Source of the DNA: a virus
Strand: one strand, 5' to 3'
IMG/VR virus record: IMGVR_UViG_3300021964_000004
Span: 1 to 41,691 of that record
Length of the DNA: 41,691 bases
A program made the translations under genes and the position numbers. The notes below the pieces were generated by a model. That model was not told the DNA's origin. It saw only the letters and a program-made list of their open reading frames with translations, and ran no database searches. Each line of letters opens with the position of its first letter. The first letter of the stretch is position 1. Shown here in pieces: positions 4,978 to 41,301 of the stretch.

Positions 4978-5018
4978 ATATCATCTAGTACTGTACCAGT
5001 GACAGTACTAGTTGATAT
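4978..5018 (+). other. Intergenic hairpin with loop ACCAGTG
   Basis: There are six base pairs (ATATCA/TGATAT), a T·T mismatch, then ten base pairs (CTAGTACTGT/ACAGTACTAG) closing the 7-nt loop ACCAGTG (4995-5001). It starts directly after the previous stop codon and is followed by AAAAGAAAGG and the next ATG. It belongs to the RCYNNTG-loop family described in the findings. Confidence 0.75.
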
Positions 5019-5250: not shown

Positions 5251-5295
5251 TATATATCACTCTGTCAGTACTCGTGACTGACAGACTGATGTATA
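5251..5295 (+). other. Intergenic hairpin with loop ACTCGTG
   Basis: An outer 9-bp helix (TATATATCA with TGATGTATA, one G·U), a C·C mismatch, and an inner 9-bp helix (TCTGTCAGT/ACTGACAGA) close the 7-nt loop ACTCGTG (5270-5276). It is followed by AAAAGAAAGG and an ATG. The stem is almost identical to that at 5574-5618, but the loop differs. Confidence 0.75.
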
Positions 5296-5573: not shown

Positions 5574-5618
5574 TATATATCACTCTGTCAGTGCCAATGA
5601 CTGACAGACTGATATGTA
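5574..5618 (+). other. Intergenic hairpin with loop GCCAATG
   Basis: An outer 9-bp helix, a C·C mismatch (5583/5609) and the inner 9-bp helix TCTGTCAGT/ACTGACAGA close the loop GCCAATG (5593-5599). It lies 2 nt after the previous stop. The stem matches that of 5251-5295 almost base for base, so one is probably a copy of the other with a changed loop. Confidence 0.75.
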
Positions 5619-6265: not shown

Positions 6266-6319
6266 CGTATATATTACAGTCTGTTGTCTGTACTTATGAC
6301 AGACAACAGTCTGTATACG
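6266..6319 (+). other. Intergenic hairpin with loop ACTTATG
   Basis: An 11-bp inner stem (CTGTTGTCTGT/ACAGACAACAG) closes the 7-nt loop ACTTATG (6292-6298). Below it are a T·T mismatch, a 5-bp helix and a further CGTA/TACG helix. CGAAAGGG and the ATG of the next gene follow directly. It is a member of the RCYNNTG-loop family. Confidence 0.72.
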
Positions 6320-6964: not shown

Positions 6965-7508
6965 TAATCAGGCCACTATCATTGGTAAAACAGCTGACGT
7001 TGAAAAACTTATAGCTGACATTACTAATGAAGATGGAACATATGCATTAACAAATGTATATCCAACACCTACAGAACTAGAAAACATACATCAAGGTTCA
7101 AGAAATATTGATGGTGTTAGACACGATGCTTGGTTCGAAGACGAAGATGGTGTACGACCATTACTAGATATGTTTAAGCTAGAGCTTGTTGAAAAGTATG
7201 GTACATACAAATCAATTGACTGGCAGTATAACAACTGGGGAACTAAATGGGGCGACTGTCAAACTACTATCAAGTGGGATGGCGAAGTTTTATACGTAGG
7301 ATTTGAGTCTGCTTGGGGAGAACCATTCTTGTTGTTACAAGAAATAGCTACCAAGTATAATGTTAATATCAATAACAGATGGGACATTGAATTTGGACAA
7401 GATTCTGGACAAACTATATATCCATTTCCTAATGGTGAAAAAGTTAAAGCAGACCATATAAAATCTTTACAAGAAAGTAGAGATAAAATAGACAGTATGT
7501 TTAAATAA
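6948..7508 (+). CDS. Api92-like (DUF1281-type) ferredoxin-fold protein, 186 aa
   Basis: It starts at ATG 6948, right after GAAAGAAAGG; a longer frame from 6864 belongs to the preceding small gene region. It opens with MPNWTDNQATI, close to the MPNWC-N-x-hydrophobic start typical of Api92-like proteins. It also has their second hallmark, a Trp-rich stretch (DWQYNNWGTKWG near residues 91-102) followed by a Trp-Gly-Glu-Pro segment. These proteins occur in phages and plasmids; their biochemical role is not established to my knowledge. It ends the first early cluster; a 300-nt structured noncoding region follows. Confidence 0.8.
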   Translation: MPNWTDNQATIIGKTADVEKLIADITNEDGTYALTNVYPTPTELENIHQGSRNIDGVRHDAWFEDEDGVRPLLDMFKLELVEKYGTYKSIDWQYNNWGTKWGDCQTTIKWDGEVLYVGFESAWGEPFLLLQEIATKYNVNINNRWDIEFGQDSGQTIYPFPNGEKVKADHIKSLQESRDKIDSMFK

Positions 7509-7515
7509 GAAACGC

Positions 7516-7834
7516 AGCTACTTACATTGCTTGTACCCCTTTGCAAGCCATTAGACCAAAATGTAGGTAGCTTGTAGCACATAGAGTAAGATAGGCCACG
7601 CCAGCTGACGAGCTGAGGCAAAGTAGGACGACTGTGTGTTACAAGCTATCTATTAGTAAGAATTGCAGCTGCCCTGTTGCTTAAATGACTGAACGTAGAT
7701 AGCTTAGTACTTATACAGAATCGGTGTTCTAATTGCCCAATAAAGTTATCCGAAGTGTAAGTACTGAGCTATATGATATAGCACTAAAGTAAAAAATATG
7801 TAATCTGTCTGCACTATTGACAGACAGATTACAT
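7516..7834 (+). ncRNA. Chain of overlapping hairpins (structured RNA island)
   Basis: This noncoding stretch has successive helices that share their end bases. H1 is AGCTACTTACATT (7516-7528) with 7560-7572. H2 is GCTTGTA (7570-7576) with 7640-7646, containing CAGCT/AGCTG (7602-7615). H3 is AAGCTATCTA (7643-7652) with 7696-7705. H4 is AGCTTAGTACTTA (7701-7713) with 7758-7770. H5 is GCTATA (7768-7773) with 7777-7782. A final perfect 14-bp hairpin (7798-7834) precedes the next ribosome site. Neighbouring helices overlap by 3-5 nt of AGCT-type sequence, so they either stack end to end or exclude one another. No open reading frame is apparent. Confidence 0.55.
7798..7834 (+). other. Intergenic hairpin, 14-bp stem, loop core ACTATTG
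   Basis: The perfect stem ATGTAATCTGTCTG/CAGACAGATTACAT closes CACTATTGA. If the first and last loop bases (C·A) count as a mismatch, the remaining 7-nt loop ACTATTG fits the RCYNNTG family seen upstream. The ribosome site AGAAGGG and ATG 7852 follow. Confidence 0.7.
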
Positions 7835-7851: not shown

Positions 7852-8316
7852 ATGTATGATAATGAAGATATAGAAGGTATATCAGCAGAACCATCAATCG
7901 ACCATTACATTGTTACGTTTATTCAAAGTAAACCAGGCGATGATAAAGGTACGTTTGCAAGAGTTGTTCACGTTGATGCACCAGACCACGTAACAGCTAT
8001 ACAATATGCACAACGTATTGATATGTCTGCTAGAGCAGAAGTAATGACAGACTGGCTACCACCAGATGATATAGCTGAGAAATTACTTGGACCTAATCCA
8101 ACTCTTGACGACCTTAGAAAGCTTCATACAAAATTCATTGACGAAAATATGTTCAAAGCTTTTATGATGGAAGATTATAAAGCTATACAAGTAACTAAAG
8201 AATCTGATATTGAAGAACTGAATGAAGAAACTATTAATCTTGTCATCAATAATGCAAATAATATTGGTGATGAAGCAGAAGAGTTTCTAAGAAAGGAGGG
8301 TAATGACACTACCTGA
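7852..8316 (+). CDS. Unknown protein, 154 aa, first gene of MoxR/VWA operon
   Basis: It has an ATG after AGAAGGGAAAA. It is an acidic protein with a compact N-terminal alpha/beta part (HYIVTFIQSKPG near residue 18, then ARVVHVDAPDHVTAIQYA) and a helical acidic C-terminal half. I recognise no family. Four genes (154 aa, 100 aa, MoxR ATPase, VWA protein) overlap or nearly touch, so it probably acts with the ATPase. Its end overlaps the next gene by 14 nt. Confidence 0.75.
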   Translation: MYDNEDIEGISAEPSIDHYIVTFIQSKPGDDKGTFARVVHVDAPDHVTAIQYAQRIDMSARAEVMTDWLPPDDIAEKLLGPNPTLDDLRKLHTKFIDENMFKAFMMEDYKAIQVTKESDIEELNEETINLVINNANNIGDEAEEFLRKEGNDTT

Positions 8317-8618: not shown

Positions 8619-9332
8619 ATGGATGATTGTTGGAAATTAGTTGCATCTGTACTAGGAAAGTCACGTAGAGTATTACTCTATGGGCCACCAGGTACAGGTA
8701 AAACATACAGTGCAGTAAAACAAAGCACACCATTAGATATAAATGGTAATCCAAATATATATCAAATAACAATGACAGAAGATACTGCCGCTGCAAACTT
8801 GGAAGGCTTTTATATGCCTAGCAAGGATGGCAGTTTCGAATGGCATGACGGTATTGCAATACAGTCGTGGCGTAATGGAGGTAGATTGGTTATCAACGAG
8901 ATAGACCACGCTTCTCCAGATGCAATGACATTCTTGCATGCAATTCTTGACGACCAAGACATAGCTATGTTGACATTGAATAATGACAATAAAGAAACAG
9001 TACGACCAGCTGAAGGGTTTCAGGTAGTAGCTACTACTAACAGCCCACCATCTTCATTGCCGCCAGCATTGAAAGATAGGTTTCCAGTTAAGATACACGT
9101 TGATACTGTACACCCTAAAGCTATGGAGAAATTTCCAGAAGAATGGCATAACGTAATTAAGGATACAACATTAGTTGAAGACCCTGAAGAACGTGTGTCG
9201 CTTCGTGCTTGGACAGAGTTCTTTGCATTGCAAGACAAAGGTTTCTCACAAGAAACAGCAGCTAAACTTATCTTTGCTGACAAAGCAGATGAGTTAATCG
9301 ATGCAACTGTATTGGCGAAAGCTGATGCATAA
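8619..9332 (+). CDS. MoxR-type AAA+ ATPase
   Basis: This is a 237-aa ATPase of the MoxR/AAA_5 group, which remodels protein complexes with a VWA partner. It shows a Walker A GPPGTGKT (22-29), a Walker B LVINEID (90-96), a sensor-1 Asn in ATTNSP (about 139-143) and an arginine-finger candidate in LKDRF (R154). It is shorter than cellular MoxR proteins (about 300 aa) and has a small C-terminal lid. The next gene, which overlaps it by 8 nt, encodes the expected VWA protein. The actual substrate is unknown. Confidence 0.92.
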   Translation: MDDCWKLVASVLGKSRRVLLYGPPGTGKTYSAVKQSTPLDINGNPNIYQITMTEDTAAANLEGFYMPSKDGSFEWHDGIAIQSWRNGGRLVINEIDHASPDAMTFLHAILDDQDIAMLTLNNDNKETVRPAEGFQVVATTNSPPSSLPPALKDRFPVKIHVDTVHPKAMEKFPEEWHNVIKDTTLVEDPEERVSLRAWTEFFALQDKGFSQETAAKLIFADKADELIDATVLAKADA

Positions 9333-10824
9333 AGCATATCCATATCCAGAAATAGTTACAGGTGACAACTGGCAAGTTAATGAACTAGTACCAGGTGATA
9401 TTGCATCTACAGATAATCTAAATAAACAGATGACAGTACCACTTGACCAAGCATGTGACAAATGTGGTCTTAATCATAGTCGTATGATACGTAGACACGA
9501 GCTAGGTCATGCTAAATGGTCACCTAAAACTATGGGTAAACTAATGCGTGGCACACGTAAAGAAGCAATAGAAGTGTTAGAAGAAATACGAGTTAATTAT
9601 TTATTGTTTATAAATGGACTTGGTATTAACGAACCTTCTAGCTGTATAGATATTATAAGAATGCAAACTACAAGGTTAGTCTATGAAGGTAGTATAACTG
9701 AAATTATATTGTATGGTCTAGCTAGCAACTGGGTCACAAATACAATTGATAAAACACATAGATATTATCAAACAGACGATGAACACAGAGAGTATCATAA
9801 ATACAGTTATGCATCTCGTTTAGACCGATTTAAACGTGGTGAAGAGTATAGAGCATTCAAAGATATAATGGCACACGCTATTACAAACCCTGATATATCA
9901 CCAATAAGACAAGAAGAACTACAATTTGCACTTAATCAAATTGGATATTTTTTCGATAAATTACTTGTTAAAGGTAATACATACAGGTATTCAGAACAAG
10001 TATCTTATAGAAAAGTACAGAAAGTAGCAGAAGAACTATCAACAGTACTAGATATGTTTATGGATAAACCTGAAGAGGTTTATGCGCAGCCTAGTGCAGC
10101 ACCAGGTACTGATGGAACTGAAGGTGAAGAGTCAGAAACAGAAGAAGGTACATCTGGAGGTATAGGTCCTACAGCAAACGACTTAGAAAAACGTATGCGT
10201 AAACAACTAATAGACCAAATGCAGAGCTTTAACAGAAGCTCAGGTGTTGGTTATTGGGGTGAAATGACAGTACATAATCCAGTAATGACTGTAAATTTAC
10301 AGGGCAGATTACAGAACGGAAGACAGTACAGACCTCAAGAGTATGGTTACAATCCTAAATATATACATCGTTATTGTGTAGATAAAAAGATATTTAAACA
10401 AAAACAACATGTATTAGGTGGCACAATACTTATTGATGCATCTGGTTCTATGCAGTTTAATGGCTCTGATATCTTAGAAATAATGCAGTTGTTACCTGCA
10501 GTTACTATTGCTATGTACAATGGCGTTGGTAATTACGGTGACTTACGTGTTATTGCTAAGAATGGTATGCGTGTAAGTGAAGATTACTTAAATCAACATT
10601 CAGGTAAAGGTAATATTGTTGATGGCCCTGCTTTGCAATGGCTTGCATCAATGCCTGAACGTAGAATATGGGTATCAGATATGCATGTATTCGGTGGGTC
10701 TGGTAATACAACAGGTTTTAATCTAGTAAAGGATGTTATAAATACCTGTACCAGAAACAAAATTATTAATCTAAAGAACATAGAAGAAGTAAAGGAACAC
10801 GCTTATAAATTAAACGTGTTATAG
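9325..10824 (+). CDS. VWA-domain protein with N-terminal HExxH metallopeptidase-like region
   Basis: This 499-aa partner of the MoxR ATPase starts at ATG 9325, overlapping the ATPase stop by 8 nt; an ATG at 9301 would overlap more. The N-terminal part has a CxxC (44-47) and the zinc-peptidase motif HELGH (58-62), with glutamates at 83-87 in a following helix as possible third ligands. An acidic linker (about 260-278) leads to a VWA domain with the MIDAS motif DASGS (371-375). This arrangement is like DUF2201/CobT-type VWA proteins. Whether the peptidase site is active is not known. It may extract or remodel a host complex (inference). Confidence 0.88.
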   Translation: MHKAYPYPEIVTGDNWQVNELVPGDIASTDNLNKQMTVPLDQACDKCGLNHSRMIRRHELGHAKWSPKTMGKLMRGTRKEAIEVLEEIRVNYLLFINGLGINEPSSCIDIIRMQTTRLVYEGSITEIILYGLASNWVTNTIDKTHRYYQTDDEHREYHKYSYASRLDRFKRGEEYRAFKDIMAHAITNPDISPIRQEELQFALNQIGYFFDKLLVKGNTYRYSEQVSYRKVQKVAEELSTVLDMFMDKPEEVYAQPSAAPGTDGTEGEESETEEGTSGGIGPTANDLEKRMRKQLIDQMQSFNRSSGVGYWGEMTVHNPVMTVNLQGRLQNGRQYRPQEYGYNPKYIHRYCVDKKIFKQKQHVLGGTILIDASGSMQFNGSDILEIMQLLPAVTIAMYNGVGNYGDLRVIAKNGMRVSEDYLNQHSGKGNIVDGPALQWLASMPERRIWVSDMHVFGGSGNTTGFNLVKDVINTCTRNKIINLKNIEEVKEHAYKLNVL

Positions 10825-34202: not shown

Positions 34203-35491
34203 TATCCTCCATACATAGCAGACATAATATTATTCTGCATTTCTCTAATCTGTGAACCACGTTCCCAAGCTTCCATCTCTCCACCAAGTTCTTCTTCAAA
34301 CTTAGCTTCAAATATTTCAGCTGGTGTCATAGGTTGCATTTCTTGCAAGTTACCAAAATCTAATCTTTGACCTGTAACTGTATCTACACGTCTAGGTCTT
34401 TCTGTTACTGGGTCAACTGTAAATTTAGTATCGTATATAGGCTTTGTAGTTATATCCATATTTTCTACTTCGTATTTAAAACGTTCTAATTGTGTATAAC
34501 TATCTGAATAACTTTGTGCTAAAGCTGTTGACCAATCACTTAATTCTTTTGCTGAAGGACTTCTACCTGTATTAGCAACAAAATAAGCTTCTACCATATC
34601 ATCTAGTGTTTCTTTTTTAGGAGGAAGATATTTAATTTTTTCAGCTTCTAATTCTTCTTCTAATGCAAATTTCTTTAAATCAACATTTGCTTTAGCTAGT
34701 TCTTTAACTGCATAATTAAATAAATTTCTTTCAAAAGATACATCCATATTTTCATATTCAATATCACTAAAAAATACAGGTTCTTCTGATAATATTTGAT
34801 TTCTTAATGGTGTACCTTCAGCAGCATTAATATTTTTATCTGCCCAATTCATAACAGTTTCAATTATTCCTCTTAATTTTTCACTGTATACACCTTTAGT
34901 TCCAGCAAAATCTTGTGGTGTAGCTATATCATTTTGTATTAAATAATTTTGAAACGCTACTATTTCTTGAGTGGAAGCTGCTTGTGAAAATATATTAGAA
35001 AATAAAACATTATTAAAATATCCATCAAAAACTTGTAATGTACCATCAGCTTGTTCTAGTAACCTTGTTCCTGTTTCAGATGACAATTGAAATGCCATGT
35101 TTTTAACTTCTTGTTTTATAGCTTCAGCAGCATCTTCAGCAGATATATCTCCACGAGCTTCTTGCATATTTATTTGTTCAAGAGCGCTAGTAAGATACTG
35201 TCTTTGCTCATTATTATATTTATAACCTTGTTCTTTTTCTATAGCATCAATATCTGGTTTATATTTATCCTCAACATTTTTAATTGCTGTATCAAGTATT
35301 TCTTTAAATTTATCCATATCTTTAGCAGCTCTAGCAGCAATAAGGTCGCTGATTAATTCTTCTTGACTTGAAAAATATATATTTTCTTTAAGATTATTTA
35401 TTTCTGATACAACATTAAAAGTACCTTCAGTAGGTACACCTAATACATCGTAACTTCTTAATATTTCAATTATTTGTTCGTCTGTTGTCAT
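34202..35491 (-). CDS. Presumed internal virion protein, 429 aa
   Basis: A helical, acidic protein (many Glu, Asp, Lys; TSALEQINMQEARGDISAED, then a NTGRSPSAKELSDW loop). It overlaps the giant gene by 4 nt and the Nudix gene by one base. Its place in the row of large late genes suggests an internal core or ejection protein. No family recognised. Confidence 0.66.
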   Translation of the reverse strand: MTTDEQIIEILRSYDVLGVPTEGTFNVVSEINNLKENIYFSSQEELISDLIAARAAKDMDKFKEILDTAIKNVEDKYKPDIDAIEKEQGYKYNNEQRQYLTSALEQINMQEARGDISAEDAAEAIKQEVKNMAFQLSSETGTRLLEQADGTLQVFDGYFNNVLFSNIFSQAASTQEIVAFQNYLIQNDIATPQDFAGTKGVYSEKLRGIIETVMNWADKNINAAEGTPLRNQILSEEPVFFSDIEYENMDVSFERNLFNYAVKELAKANVDLKKFALEEELEAEKIKYLPPKKETLDDMVEAYFVANTGRSPSAKELSDWSTALAQSYSDSYTQLERFKYEVENMDITTKPIYDTKFTVDPVTERPRRVDTVTGQRLDFGNLQEMQPMTPAEIFEAKFEEELGGEMEAWERGSQIREMQNNIMSAMYGG

Positions 35492-38400
35492 TTTATATAA
35501 TCCAGTACTTCGTAGTCATCTCTGTATAACTTTAACATAACTCCGTTCCATACACCCCAAAAATCAGGATATTCTGCTATAATCTGCTGTGCTTTATTAT
35601 ACATCCAAATTCGCATAGATAAAGCAGTTGGGTCATTAGATGTTAACCACCAAGTAGTAGTACCTAGTACGTTACCTTTAGCCGATTCTTCCCTAGATAT
35701 TTGTTCCATTTCTTCCCAGTAAGGTAATATTTCTAAAAAGCCTTTTCCTGCTTCTTGGTCTGCAACAAAATCAATTGTTGTCCATTTGTTACGCATTTCA
35801 TTAAATATATCAGTAACAGCAGGAGGAGTTAACAAACCGTATTCATCAGCTTGAAAACCAGGTAATGCTTGTTTTAATTCTTCCCTGTATGTTGTTTTAA
35901 TTAGATTTTTTTGTGCATATGGTATATCTAGTTTTTCTAAGTTAGAACTAAATGTTTTATATCTAAAAAATCCTATAGTATCATTTACAGCTCTACGATA
36001 TTGGTCTGGTGACATTAATGATTTTTCAGCAACAATATCTCTATAATTTTTTTCTTCATTAGGATTGTCCATATTTAAGTAATAACCAGATAATTTAAGT
36101 TGGTCAAAAACTTCTTTGTTTTCTTCTTGAAATTCTTGAACGCGTTTACTGCTAGGTTTTCTACCTGTTTCTGATTGTGACTTAGGACTTGTAATATATG
36201 GATGTTCTATACCATACAAAGTTAAAAACTCAGTATATGCAGCTAAATTATTACCTTCATTTTTTTCTACAATTCTTACGTACTCATCGTAAAGTACAGC
36301 TGTACCCCATAATGCACCATCATTATCTTTAATAAAATACTCTGGTTTAAATCCAGTAGGACCAAAGAATTGATATGCAAACTGCATAAAGAATAACTTA
36401 CCTGATTTTATTTTTGCATATTCTAAAAATGCTTCATCAATTTGTTTTTGAGTAATAGATTCTGCGTCCCATTGATTTGGAAATAATGTATTTAAATAAG
36501 AATTTAATTTACCTTCATTATACAATCTCATATTTTCACCAGATGCCATACCAAATCTAAATATATCTGCAGTAGCATTAGCTCTTAATTTATGTATTTC
36601 ACGACTATCTTCTGTTATGTTTTCAAAATCTTCTGGCTTAACTAAAGCTGCAGCAAATTTTTTATAAACAGGTGATACAGCAAATGCATCAGTTATTTTT
36701 TCTGGTGGAGGGAAATCTCCAAATATACCTTCAATAACCATATCTGGTGCATTAAATTGAGATAATACTTTATTTGCAGCAAAACCTACTAATGGGTTAG
36801 GTCCTGGAACAAAACCTTGTCCTAATAAGTTAACACCTTGTACATAACCTTTTGGAGATATTTTTGTATTACTATCATCACCAAAAATTATATTTGACAT
36901 CCAACCACCAAATGGCAATACAAACATATCTTTATCTGGTTCATTAGGATTTTGTGTAAAGAAACCATCTTCAGAGCTACTACCAAAATCATCAGCAGCA
37001 GTACCACCTCTTAAACCTACATATCCTTTTCTTAATACTGTTGGATTTGCAGCTAACAATTGTCCCCAAGTTTGGAAGACTTCAAACCATACTTCTACGA
37101 ATGGGAATATATTTAATAACTTATCTGATAATGCATGCTTTTGTGATGTATCATAGAGAAGATTTTTAACCATTGCTAAACCAAAAGCTTTACTTTCTAC
37201 ATTCATTGCATCGTAATCTGTAATAGTACCTTTTTTCCATAGGTTGGATAAACCTTTTAATTCATCAATAACAGATTGTGGAACTGCAGCATCTTGTGCT
37301 TCTTTAATAAATTGTTTTTGTAAAGCAGGAGAATAATTTTTAAATTGACTTGTAATGTATTCCCATCGATATTGTTTAAATACTGGTGACCTATTTAAAT
37401 ATCCAATAGGTTTAGTAATTAAATTATCAAATGCAACATTTAACATTTCATCCCAACCACCTTGTAATAAACTACTATTTTCATCAATTAATTTTCTAGT
37501 AATTTTTACAGCACCACCGTTAACACCTTCATCATAAAATCTACCTAATTCATCAAGCACTGCTTTCTTTTTAAACATTTTTAATGATTTTTCAGGATTT
37601 TCAAAAAAGTCTAATACTTTACCGTCTTTTGTTTTTAATTGACCTTTAGCAATAGCTTCACGAATAGCAGGTTCACCTAAGTTTTTACTTGTTAAATTAT
37701 AACGATATGTACCATCTTTTTGTTTAAATAAATCTTTACCTTCTACTACATCACCACCAGATTTAATACGTATACGTGATTCAAGATATTGTAAATGTTG
37801 GTCAAGAAAATCTCCATCTTTTAATATTTCTTGCCATTTAGAACCACCATCTTTTACATATTGCATTCTTACATCTCTACCAGCAGGAGAAGATAACCAT
37901 TCATTTAATGCTTTAGAACCATAACCAAACTCAGCAACTTTTTGTGCAAGTCCTTCAGTTCTTAAAAATAATAATTCTGCAAACCATTGTTGAGCATATT
38001 CATCTCTTTTTAGTTCATCAGGTAACTTAGCTAAGTATTCAGTATTCTTTTTATTTCTAGTAGGACCTATTAATTCTGTAGCTTTAAAACTATTTTTACT
38101 AGCTTCTATAGCTTCAATAGATGCTAATAATTCAACACCATCATCGCTATATTCTGCTTTACGTATTCTGTCTAAAGGTATTTTAGAAATAACTTTACCA
38201 ACTTTAGAATTAGGGTCGTGCGCAGCTAACCATTGTATATATTTAAATGGATGATTATATATACCTGATAATCCAGATGTAGCAATACGTGCTTGTTCTT
38301 CTAAAAATACACGAGTAAAAAATGCAGCTCTTAACAAAACAAATGGTTTAAATACATTTCTTGTGTAAAAAGATAAAATATTACCAACAAAATCTTCTTC

Positions 38401-41301
38401 TAATTTTTTAAGAGTAATAATACCTTCATCATAAGGATTTTTTAAATCTGTACCATCTGCACTTTTTCTTAATTTATATTTACCATAATCAACAACATCT
38501 TGTAAATTCTTTTTAAATACATCCATTGGTGCTATATCTTTTTCTAAATCGTTAGTGTAAGATTTCCACATTCTACTCATAGACCTTTGAATAATTTTAT
38601 GATTCATTAAAGGAACAACATTGTCATTCATTTCAGTTAACATAGAACCAGTCATCATTGGCATATCAACATACTTACCATCTGGTGTTTTAATACGATA
38701 CATTTCATAACCACTACCTGTGTTAGGTAATATTTTTTTATCACGCATTAATGCATATATTTTAGATTTTTCCATACCTTCAAATAAACGTTTTTGAGCT
38801 GCAGCAACGTATTCCCAGTTACCGCCACGTTTTGCAACAAGTTCTAAATCGTATTGCACTAATTCTTTTCCAAAATTTCTAACAGCTGATTTATCAGCAA
38901 AATCTATATTTAAAAATTGATTAATAATTTTATTAGCGTCTTTATCACCGTATGCATTTATTTGCAAATGACTTACAAGTTGTTTATAACCATTAGAAAA
39001 ACTGTTTAATGGAATACCTTGGCCTGGAATTAAACCTAATAATTTTCTATAATAAGGATTATAAGTAGAGTTAAAGTTAGAACTAAATCCTAAATATTTT
39101 TCAAATTCTAATTTATCTCCTAATCCATATTTGTCTACAACTTTTTGTGCTTGTATTAATTCACCTGCAGAATCTAAGTCATCAAGAACTCCTGCAACTG
39201 CACTATCTGTATCAAGAAGTTTTTTAAATTTTCTAGTAGGAGAACCAGGAATTGCTTGTTCAAGCATTGTTCTACCTACACGTGCTTTTTCTCCTAAGAA
39301 ACTTCCAGCACTACGATACGCAGCTCTTTCATCTCCAACAGCAGACAAAGCTGTACCCATTGCTTTACCAAATACACCTTTAGATTTTTGCAACTCTGTA
39401 CCTTTTGTAGCTGCTTGTTGTAATAATTTATTAAGTACAAATGAACCTTTAACAGGTAAAGTACCATCTTTAAAGTATGTTGAGAGTTTTACGTTAGTAG
39501 TCATACCTGTATCTTCAACAACTTGAAAACCAGTGTCTAACATATCTCCCCAAATTTTTCTTTGTTTTTGCCAATCTGCTTCTTCAGCTATAGCCTGTAT
39601 AGCTTTAGGGTGTAATTTTCCTATATAAGGATTAGTTGATAATGCAAATATATCATCAGGAGTTGTTGCTGCAAGAGTTTTAAAAAAGTTTTCCATAATT
39701 GGTTGAGATAAAATATCATCTTTAGTAAGTTGAAAAAATCTAGGAACTCTACCAAAAAATGTATGGTCTTTTTTAGTTTCTCTAACAGCTTTTCTAGTTG
39801 TTTTTTTAGAATATACTACTTCATCTAAATCTTTTAACTTACCTGTTTTAGGATTTAAATGTTTACTAAAATTACCTGTACCTGTAAATGGGTCTGCTTC
39901 ATCAGCAACAGTATCAGCAATTTTATTTGCGATACCTCTTGGAGATAAATTAACTTTACCTTCTTTTGTATATTGCCAATTTTTTGTCCATTTAAAATCA
40001 GGAACAGCTTGTCTAATAAAACCACCTTTTTTAAATGTTCCAACATCATGAGTTAACTCAACTGCATCATTAATTCTTCTAAATCCTTTACGTAAGTTAC
40101 TTACTCCTTTAACACCCTTACCTGCAAGCAACTCAGGTACTATTTGATAAGCAGCATCTATAGTTCCAGACATCATATCAAACTGTACAGAACCCGGTTC
40201 AAATATTTCACCTGTGTAAACTTTACCTGGTGAATACTCAAGTAAAATATTTTTATCTGCAAACTCTGGTCTATATAATTCTTGTTGTGTATAGTCACTA
40301 GAAAACATAAAACGTTGTTTATGTCTACCTGCATAAAAATTAATTTGATTTGGTTTAAATGAAGATGTGTAATTTAACTGACCATTTTCATCAAAGTTTT
40401 TAATTGGCGAACCAATTTTGTTATAAATAAATTTACGTGCTTCTTCTGGTGTCATGTTGTAATTAGTTATTAAATCGTTGTAATAAGGAGTATCTTCAGC
40501 TTTAACAGACTCTAATGTTATTTTTGTACCTCTATCAAAGTTAACTGGTTTACCATTTACAACTTGTCTAAACATATTCCAAAGAACAGCTTCACCACCC
40601 ATATCATTAGCTTCTCTCATCATTGCAATATGTTTTCTCATATCACCTCTAAGGTTTGTATCTTTACCAATATTTTCTACTTCAGTCATAGAAACATCTA
40701 TTTGTAATTTTGATTGTGCTTCAGCTGGAGAATAACCTTCTTGTAATAATTTATCGTATGCACGTAAATCTCTTAAATAAGCTTGTGACCTACCAACAAC
40801 CATTGGTTGTCCTGGTACAAGAGCATTAGCAGCGGAAGCAATAACAGACCATTTACCAGAAGGGCCAAATGTTTGAAATAACGCATCTAATCCAGCAAAT
40901 GCCCAAACACCGTATTGAACATCTCCTGGTTTAGCTCCGCCTGGTGCAATACCAAATGTAAGTAAATCACCAATTGACATTTTCATATTGTCTTCTAAAT
41001 TTTCATATTGATATTTTTCCTGAAGCTCTTGCCAAATTTCACCTTCTTTTTTAGCACGATTGTAAACCACTTCTTCAGCAATTTGTTTAGCACTTTCATG
41101 TTCTGCTGTACCGCCAGCTAAAACAAAAGGAACTGCAATAGATGCAGGTAATTGAAATTTTTCTGTTATTTCTTCTAAAGTTTTGCTATATAAATCATTA
41201 ACAGCAAAATTATTATTATATTGACCTATTTGTAAATCATCATGCTTATTAGATAAAGCATCATCTATTTCTTTATTTTCGTCAAATAAATGAAAAGCCA
41301 T
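35488..41301 (-). CDS. Giant virion protein, 1937 aa (internal/ejection candidate)
   Basis: At 5.8 kb this is 14 per cent of the genome. It is mostly helical with scattered hydrophobic stretches, such as near residues 103-160 (LLTFGIAPGG, VWAFAGLDALFQTFG), about 975-1005 (NVFKPFVLLRAAFFTRVFLEEQ) and about 1390-1420 (FPFVEVWFEVFQTWGQLLAANP). No polymerase, protease or lysozyme motifs are apparent. Size and position between portal and scaffold genes are like large ejection proteins (T7 gp16 or N4-type inner proteins), and there is no separate tape-measure gene. It overlaps the next gene by 4 nt. Confidence 0.8.
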   Translation of the reverse strand: MAFHLFDENKEIDDALSNKHDDLQIGQYNNNFAVNDLYSKTLEEITEKFQLPASIAVPFVLAGGTAEHESAKQIAEEVVYNRAKKEGEIWQELQEKYQYENLEDNMKMSIGDLLTFGIAPGGAKPGDVQYGVWAFAGLDALFQTFGPSGKWSVIASAANALVPGQPMVVGRSQAYLRDLRAYDKLLQEGYSPAEAQSKLQIDVSMTEVENIGKDTNLRGDMRKHIAMMREANDMGGEAVLWNMFRQVVNGKPVNFDRGTKITLESVKAEDTPYYNDLITNYNMTPEEARKFIYNKIGSPIKNFDENGQLNYTSSFKPNQINFYAGRHKQRFMFSSDYTQQELYRPEFADKNILLEYSPGKVYTGEIFEPGSVQFDMMSGTIDAAYQIVPELLAGKGVKGVSNLRKGFRRINDAVELTHDVGTFKKGGFIRQAVPDFKWTKNWQYTKEGKVNLSPRGIANKIADTVADEADPFTGTGNFSKHLNPKTGKLKDLDEVVYSKKTTRKAVRETKKDHTFFGRVPRFFQLTKDDILSQPIMENFFKTLAATTPDDIFALSTNPYIGKLHPKAIQAIAEEADWQKQRKIWGDMLDTGFQVVEDTGMTTNVKLSTYFKDGTLPVKGSFVLNKLLQQAATKGTELQKSKGVFGKAMGTALSAVGDERAAYRSAGSFLGEKARVGRTMLEQAIPGSPTRKFKKLLDTDSAVAGVLDDLDSAGELIQAQKVVDKYGLGDKLEFEKYLGFSSNFNSTYNPYYRKLLGLIPGQGIPLNSFSNGYKQLVSHLQINAYGDKDANKIINQFLNIDFADKSAVRNFGKELVQYDLELVAKRGGNWEYVAAAQKRLFEGMEKSKIYALMRDKKILPNTGSGYEMYRIKTPDGKYVDMPMMTGSMLTEMNDNVVPLMNHKIIQRSMSRMWKSYTNDLEKDIAPMDVFKKNLQDVVDYGKYKLRKSADGTDLKNPYDEGIITLKKLEEDFVGNILSFYTRNVFKPFVLLRAAFFTRVFLEEQARIATSGLSGIYNHPFKYIQWLAAHDPNSKVGKVISKIPLDRIRKAEYSDDGVELLASIEAIEASKNSFKATELIGPTRNKKNTEYLAKLPDELKRDEYAQQWFAELLFLRTEGLAQKVAEFGYGSKALNEWLSSPAGRDVRMQYVKDGGSKWQEILKDGDFLDQHLQYLESRIRIKSGGDVVEGKDLFKQKDGTYRYNLTSKNLGEPAIREAIAKGQLKTKDGKVLDFFENPEKSLKMFKKKAVLDELGRFYDEGVNGGAVKITRKLIDENSSLLQGGWDEMLNVAFDNLITKPIGYLNRSPVFKQYRWEYITSQFKNYSPALQKQFIKEAQDAAVPQSVIDELKGLSNLWKKGTITDYDAMNVESKAFGLAMVKNLLYDTSQKHALSDKLLNIFPFVEVWFEVFQTWGQLLAANPTVLRKGYVGLRGGTAADDFGSSSEDGFFTQNPNEPDKDMFVLPFGGWMSNIIFGDDSNTKISPKGYVQGVNLLGQGFVPGPNPLVGFAANKVLSQFNAPDMVIEGIFGDFPPPEKITDAFAVSPVYKKFAAALVKPEDFENITEDSREIHKLRANATADIFRFGMASGENMRLYNEGKLNSYLNTLFPNQWDAESITQKQIDEAFLEYAKIKSGKLFFMQFAYQFFGPTGFKPEYFIKDNDGALWGTAVLYDEYVRIVEKNEGNNLAAYTEFLTLYGIEHPYITSPKSQSETGRKPSSKRVQEFQEENKEVFDQLKLSGYYLNMDNPNEEKNYRDIVAEKSLMSPDQYRRAVNDTIGFFRYKTFSSNLEKLDIPYAQKNLIKTTYREELKQALPGFQADEYGLLTPPAVTDIFNEMRNKWTTIDFVADQEAGKGFLEILPYWEEMEQISREESAKGNVLGTTTWWLTSNDPTALSMRIWMYNKAQQIIAEYPDFWGVWNGVMLKLYRDDYEVLDYIK

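Follow-up and report, generated by a model that had tools for sequence, protein, structure and literature searches.

Arrays of frame hairpins with exchangeable contents are structured sense-strand RNAs between phage genes

This analysis concerns a viral fragment of 41.7 kb from IMG/VR (IMGVR_UViG_3300021964_000004, 41,691 nt), hereafter called the window. Positions 7516-7834 hold an array of hairpins, whose parts are listed in Table 1 together with the genes that follow. A first-pass annotation of the DNA had described these genes as a MoxR/VWA operon. The MoxR-type AAA ATPase was confirmed (AAA_5), but a Pfam search found no VWA domain in 9301-10824. Elsewhere in the window, a 1937-aa ORF at 35488-41301 on the minus strand had no PHROG match. 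A fold scan covering the intergenic regions revealed strong plus-strand hairpins 5' of start codons (4985-5011, 5261-5285, 5584-5608, 6281-6309 and 7798-7834), most of them about 10-20 nt 5' of the ribosome-binding site and with related 7-nt loops (U[RCNNNUG]A in the first four); they may be likened to intercistronic processing sites. Since leader hairpins like that at 7798-7834 are found before further genes of this phage, it is probably a separate element and not a link of the chain.

Table 1. Parts of the window array and the genes downstream of it
Feature	Position	Strand	Description
H1, linker-type hairpin	7516-7572	+	helix 7516-7528/7560-7572, 13 bp; R1 7516-7524, R1' 7564-7572
H1 inner hairpin	7529-7548	+	apical loop with CCCCUUU
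H2, frame hairpin, extended form	7563-7653	+	helix 7563-7584/7632-7653 = R1' + TGTAGCACAT and GTGTGTTACA + R2
H2 inner stem	7572-7581/7635-7644	+	13 bp including G-U
H2 exchangeable cargo domain, 51 nt	7583-7633	+	unrelated cargo instead in L084 and L085
H3, linker-type hairpin R2..R2'	7644-7704	+	helix 7644-7652/7696-7704, 9 bp; apical GCCCUGUU
H4, second frame hairpin	7696-7775	+	R2' + TAGTACTTATAC ... GTGTAAGTACTG + AGCTAT; inner helix 7705-7716/7755-7766, 12-13 bp; cargo about 7717-7754
H5, short terminal hairpin	7768-7782	+	GCTATA/TATAGC, 6 bp; chain conformer only
Leader hairpin	7798-7834	+	directly 5' of the ribosome-binding site of 7852-8316
Downstream gene, 154 aa	7852-8316	+	no confident family; genes related to it follow arrays most often
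MoxR/CobS-type AAA ATPase	8619-9332	+	AAA_5 E 2.9e-20; PHROG 249; two genes after the array

Folded as the plus strand, 7516-7834 reached -112.7 kcal/mol, whereas 100 dinucleotide-shuffled controls gave -74.5 ± 5.2 kcal/mol, with no control folding as well (z = -7.4); the minus strand gave z = -2.0. The annotation's contention that the stems exceed chance is thereby borne out, and the five hairpins of its chain could all be located by sequence, with the AGCT/AGCTT ends it had described as shared between successive hairpins. Its stem lengths (13, 7, 10, 13 and 6 bp) stood for H1 (13), H4 (12-13) and H5 (6), whereas H3 has 9 bp and H2 has 13, not 7, once its G-U pairs are counted. In the unconstrained fold of 7500-7797 (-93.8 kcal/mol), H2 is extended to 22 bp and H4 to approximately 7699-7716/7755-7772, and the two together consume bases of H1, H3 and H5. 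Pair probabilities are about 0.95-1.0 in the extended H2 helix and mostly >0.9 in that of H4. Forcing H1 to form yields the five-hairpin chain at -93.1 kcal/mol, less than about 1 kcal/mol from the best fold. The annotation had offered two possibilities, that the helices stack in one rod or that odd and even ones exclude each other. The complete odd and the complete even hairpins of the window array are mutually exclusive. This exclusion is physically real, and in the window the energies of chain and extended form are almost equal. The chain could be favoured by coaxial stacking where helices abut flush, an effect that the energy model handles poorly. The two forms of 45 arrays differed by a median of 1.9 kcal/mol (SD 4.5), and 17 of the 45 lay within 3 kcal/mol.

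Comparison of related arrays reveals their plan. Two 9-nt sequences, R = AGCTAYYTA and R' = TAGRTAGCT, alternate along each array and form ends common to neighbouring hairpins, which are in turn of two alternating kinds, frame hairpins (with a helix of 20-24 bp) and linker hairpins. The frame hairpin sits between R' and the next R: the R'/R pairing is continued by about 11 further pairs, which enclose the contents that I hereafter call the cargo. The canonical frame helix is TAGGTAGCT-TGTAGCACAT / GTGTGTTACA-AGCTATCTA, and some 20 other covarying sequences are found in its place; the H4 frame is one that departs from the canonical sequence. In canonical and other frames alike, the uninterrupted helix measures mostly 19-25 bp, that is, about two turns, as in RNase III stems.

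Pairing in the frames was quantified on 291 units chosen by R' and R alone, with the inner stem unconstrained and some units counted on both strands; most of them pair at 9-11 of the 11 inner positions. All 11 positions pair in 26 of the 85 non-canonical units, against 2.1 with shuffled partners, a tally that overstates the independent events. When 38 distinct frames were aligned, 11 of the 19 pairs proved to have changed on both sides, and double-changed cells numbered 95, against 19.6 in shuffles; 99.6% of the cells pair, a value that comes partly from the preselection of rows for moderately good pairing and no A-C mismatches. The sequence of the frame may change, while its pairing and length are kept. 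R' shows 0.014 mismatches per pair with the next R (0.109 when shuffled) and 0.479 with its own R (0.558 when shuffled; the own-R assignment is noisy). The match of R' to the next R is thus close to perfect and that to its own R looser, so that of the two pairings the extended frame is conserved better.

The linker hairpins covary in their own right. For 15 aligned H1-type sequences, RNAalifold gave a structure in which 8 of 18 pairs have changed on both sides; for 21 relatives of H3 it returned the structure drawn by hand, in which double changes affect 6 of 15 pairs and the loop motifs are invariant. Compensatory changes are therefore present at homologous loci in frames and in both types of linker hairpin. 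The internal loop of H3, AGUAAGA / GACUGAA, can be read as loop-E-like (AGUA/GAA). The apical loops of the window's 7529-7548 hairpin and of H1-type hairpins in relatives carry CCCCUUU or CUCCUUU and resemble the anti-Shine-Dalgarno end of 16S rRNA.

Mismatches in the frame stems reveal which strand carries the structure. In 143 units, each read in its G-T-richer orientation, there were 258 G-T mismatches, 3 A-C and 1 other, and G-T and A-C were mixed within one unit in just 3 of the 143. The orientation given by G-T agrees with that of the neighbouring genes, by 112 to 19 for those downstream and by 110 to 15 for those upstream, and 127 of 138 units lie outside ORFs. The G-T bias and the orientation that follows the genes indicate that the array acts as a sense RNA, and a DNA element gives no reason for either. 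The array is therefore a structured sense-strand RNA between genes. A MITE-like inverted-repeat element is disfavoured, since its terminal repeats should be conserved as DNA and indifferent to strand, which is contradicted by the G-T bias, the gene-following orientation and the covarying stems.

Eighty loci came from a search with the MoxR-type protein, and arrays resembling that of the window were recognized at 47 of the loci compared. The 5' arm TAGCTTGTAGCACAT alone matches at least 120 stretches. Among the matches listed, the 3' arm lies within 220 nt in 127 of 137 distinct occurrences of the 5' arm (about 4% by chance), and 94 of the 120 loci have proteins in common with the window; related sequences inflate counts across the family. 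Compared with a collection of bacterial and archaeal genomes, the 3' arm gave 64 matches, nearly all of them due to chance; the only true array was in PAEL01000115.1 (L225), probably a phage contig inside a marine metagenome bin, which is labelled as a gammaproteobacterial MAG. The viral contig IMGVR_UViG_2537562005_000004 (L191) has a genome-like and not a metagenome-like identifier and, like L225, is a possible lead to a host. No DNA similarity of the window to cultured phages was found. The closest cultured relatives of its capsid protein belong mainly to Mycobacterium, Propionibacterium and Bifidobacterium phages, and its terminase matches mostly Streptomyces phages. The lineage in which the arrays were found is marine, and its hosts are probably Actinobacteria. 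The G+C content of the window, 34%, is near the about 32.5% of Ca. Actinomarinales (PMC7771536), which makes a marine actinobacterial host, for example Ca. Actinomarinales, likely on compositional grounds.

The first-pass annotation recognized the chain of hairpins but missed its modularity, that is, a conserved frame with swapped contents. The canonical frame alone encloses 150 distinct cargos in 80 clusters, an upper estimate of the number of families in this sample since blastn clustering separates cargos that are only distantly related; that of the window itself is similar to a cluster to which it was not assigned. Cargo size ranges from near-empty loops of 9-11 nt (L015, L133) to 141 nt, empty frames being rare, and the successive units of an array hold unrelated contents. 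Several domains recur both in frames of differing sequence and in linkers. One of them, AUAGCGUGCUGU...UAGGUGGA, has a covarying stem and occurs in at least two frame sequences as well as in linkers. Over many frames, cargo domains keep invariant unpaired motifs. Flanking H2 on either side, identity among the window, L084 and L085 is 95-99%, yet the similarity between their H2 cargos does not exceed that of shuffled sequence: only the H2 cargo has been replaced, and cleanly, between near-identical phages. The arrays are structured, modular sense-strand RNAs that undergo exchange. A hairpin whose sequence reads as T-arm-like, GUAGG UUNRAAU CCUAC, was noticed in cargos of L048, L066, L115, L131 and L133 and in the 64-nt cargos of L007 and L086. 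On the reverse strand of L101, an H3-type hairpin after the second frame runs directly into eight T and looks like an intrinsic terminator.

The annotation's author knew no RNA family with such a plan, which agrees with comparisons to Rfam 15 (GOLLD, ROOL, IMES, ribozymes, riboswitches and Y RNA included): no match reached the gathering score in the window and 13 relatives, nothing was found at E<=1 in six relatives, and the array region alone gave chance-level matches only. Nor was a described counterpart found in the open literature, as far as it could be searched. The array belongs to a large family that is apparently undescribed. Known ribozymes and riboswitches were rejected for want of an Rfam match. 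ARAGORN finds no tRNA or tmRNA in the window or in 30 relatives. A Y RNA with a Ro protein beside MoxR was likewise discarded, there being neither a TROVE nor a VWA domain in 9301-10824 by Pfam and no Rfam match. A type III toxin-antitoxin RNA was set aside, as successive units are unlike each other instead of tandem direct repeats and the downstream gene has no confident family.

As to function, I tentatively favour the hypothesis that the array is transcribed, cut by RNase III at the two-turn frames, and releases domains that act in trans. The array would be co-transcribed with the operon. Host RNase III would cut the two-turn helices of the frames as it does the stems flanking rRNA, to judge by helix length, and cutting would release small, stable, structured RNAs. 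These may act on host factors as decoys or mimics; some of the candidate domains contain what read as T-arm-like or loop-E-like motifs. The R/R' and frame sequences common to units could provide recombination with short homologies for domain swapping. Action in trans is preferred because the cargo is independent of the downstream gene and because unpaired motifs stay invariant while frames change; the absent linkage between cargo and downstream gene is what the proposal rests on. That nearly all arrays lie sense and 5' of genes, as expected of a cis element, counts against it. A broader proposal, which I regard as speculative, is that the phages of this lineage keep a common stock of small folded RNA domains and exchange them rapidly. 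Displayed on chained frames and processed from these, the domains would work in trans, as decoys or mimics directed at the host's translation factors or at its RNA-targeting defences.

It is possible, though somewhat doubtful, that the arrays act instead in cis on mRNA metabolism, as intercistronic processing or protection elements like the RNase III sites of T7 that separate and armour mRNAs, the cargo merely blocking nucleases without a specific target. Intercistronic sense position, strong two-turn helices and cargo that is not tied to a gene would all be accounted for, as would the further leader hairpins before genes in the window genome. Invariant unpaired motifs kept over many frames, however, exceed the needs of a plain barrier, and empty frames would not be expected to be rare.

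A regulatory leader in cis, in which the choice between chain and extended forms is set by a domain-binding factor and controls the downstream gene or genes, appears unlikely. Two nearly isoenergetic conformers sharing R' would suit such a switch, and both pairings of R' are better than shuffled; yet so few arrays (17 of 45, as above) have the two forms within 3 kcal/mol. Of the 39 cargo clusters with repeated occurrence, 28 lie before genes of at least two families, and one cargo is found before up to six; the family of 7852-8316 alone follows 29 different clusters. The link between domain class and controlled gene that characterizes riboswitches and attenuators is thus absent. This independence of cargo and downstream gene is evidence against a switch dedicated to the MoxR genes. 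The annotation's proposal of a switch for a MoxR/VWA operon is not supported: the array precedes 7852-8316, two genes 5' of MoxR. Many relatives do have mutually exclusive helices after the array that hide or free the ribosome-binding site. In L007-L011, L019, L022, L029, L030 and L059, the last ~110 nt before the homologue of 7852-8316 comprise segments A, B and C, unrelated in sequence between phages; B can pair with either of the other two, and the ribosome-binding site lies in C. The A/B hairpins often have GCCC in the loop. From their pairing potential, these segments look like a translational switch. Seen in many relatives but absent from the window, such a ribosome-binding-site switch was rejected as the general function.

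A repeat acting at the DNA level is very unlikely. It would be a mobile element bounded by inverted repeats, or an array of recombination sites, and its RNA structure would be incidental. Variable contents between terminal inverted repeats and clean replacement between genomes fit such an element, but not mismatches that are almost all G-T on one strand, an orientation that follows genes, stems replaced in sequence with pairing kept, or covarying domains inside.

To my knowledge, the structured RNAs of phages are single folds. The unit of evolution in the arrays seems instead to be the small RNA domain, moving between frames, genes and genomes; these viruses seem to shuffle such RNA tools as one might rearrange strung beads. 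One scan has provided dozens of candidate new RNA folds, covariation being established for the frame and three domain families, and the frame is a natural scaffold for the display of RNA domains. If the domains do act in trans, they would point to an RNA-level conflict of marine phages with their hosts and to host factors yet to be discovered.

Several known systems share features with the arrays. RNase III processing stems occur around rRNAs and between the early genes of phage T7, and a helix of 19-25 bp has the size of an RNase III substrate. Like the array frames, these stems are long helices within polycistronic RNA and either flank functional RNAs or lie between cistrons; in the arrays, by contrast, stems of a single family enclose dozens of exchangeable domains that are unrelated, neighbouring stems share bases, and cleavage is putative. 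Tandem riboswitches and attenuator leaders also place serial folded domains with alternative pairings before genes, but the domain type of an array is not gene-linked and no known aptamer class matches. The attC sites of integrons work as folded DNA with an integrase. Gene-cassette arrays resemble the present ones in having exchangeable cassettes between conserved structured ends, whereas the hairpin arrays have RNA-level wobble pairs, carry their cargo inside the stem and have no attC core where the frames end. Among phage RNAs, those closest in spirit are GOLLD and ROOL, large structured RNAs of phages and prophages with variable regions and of unknown function (PMC12286853); each of these is one conserved fold, while the arrays are chains of interchangeable domains.
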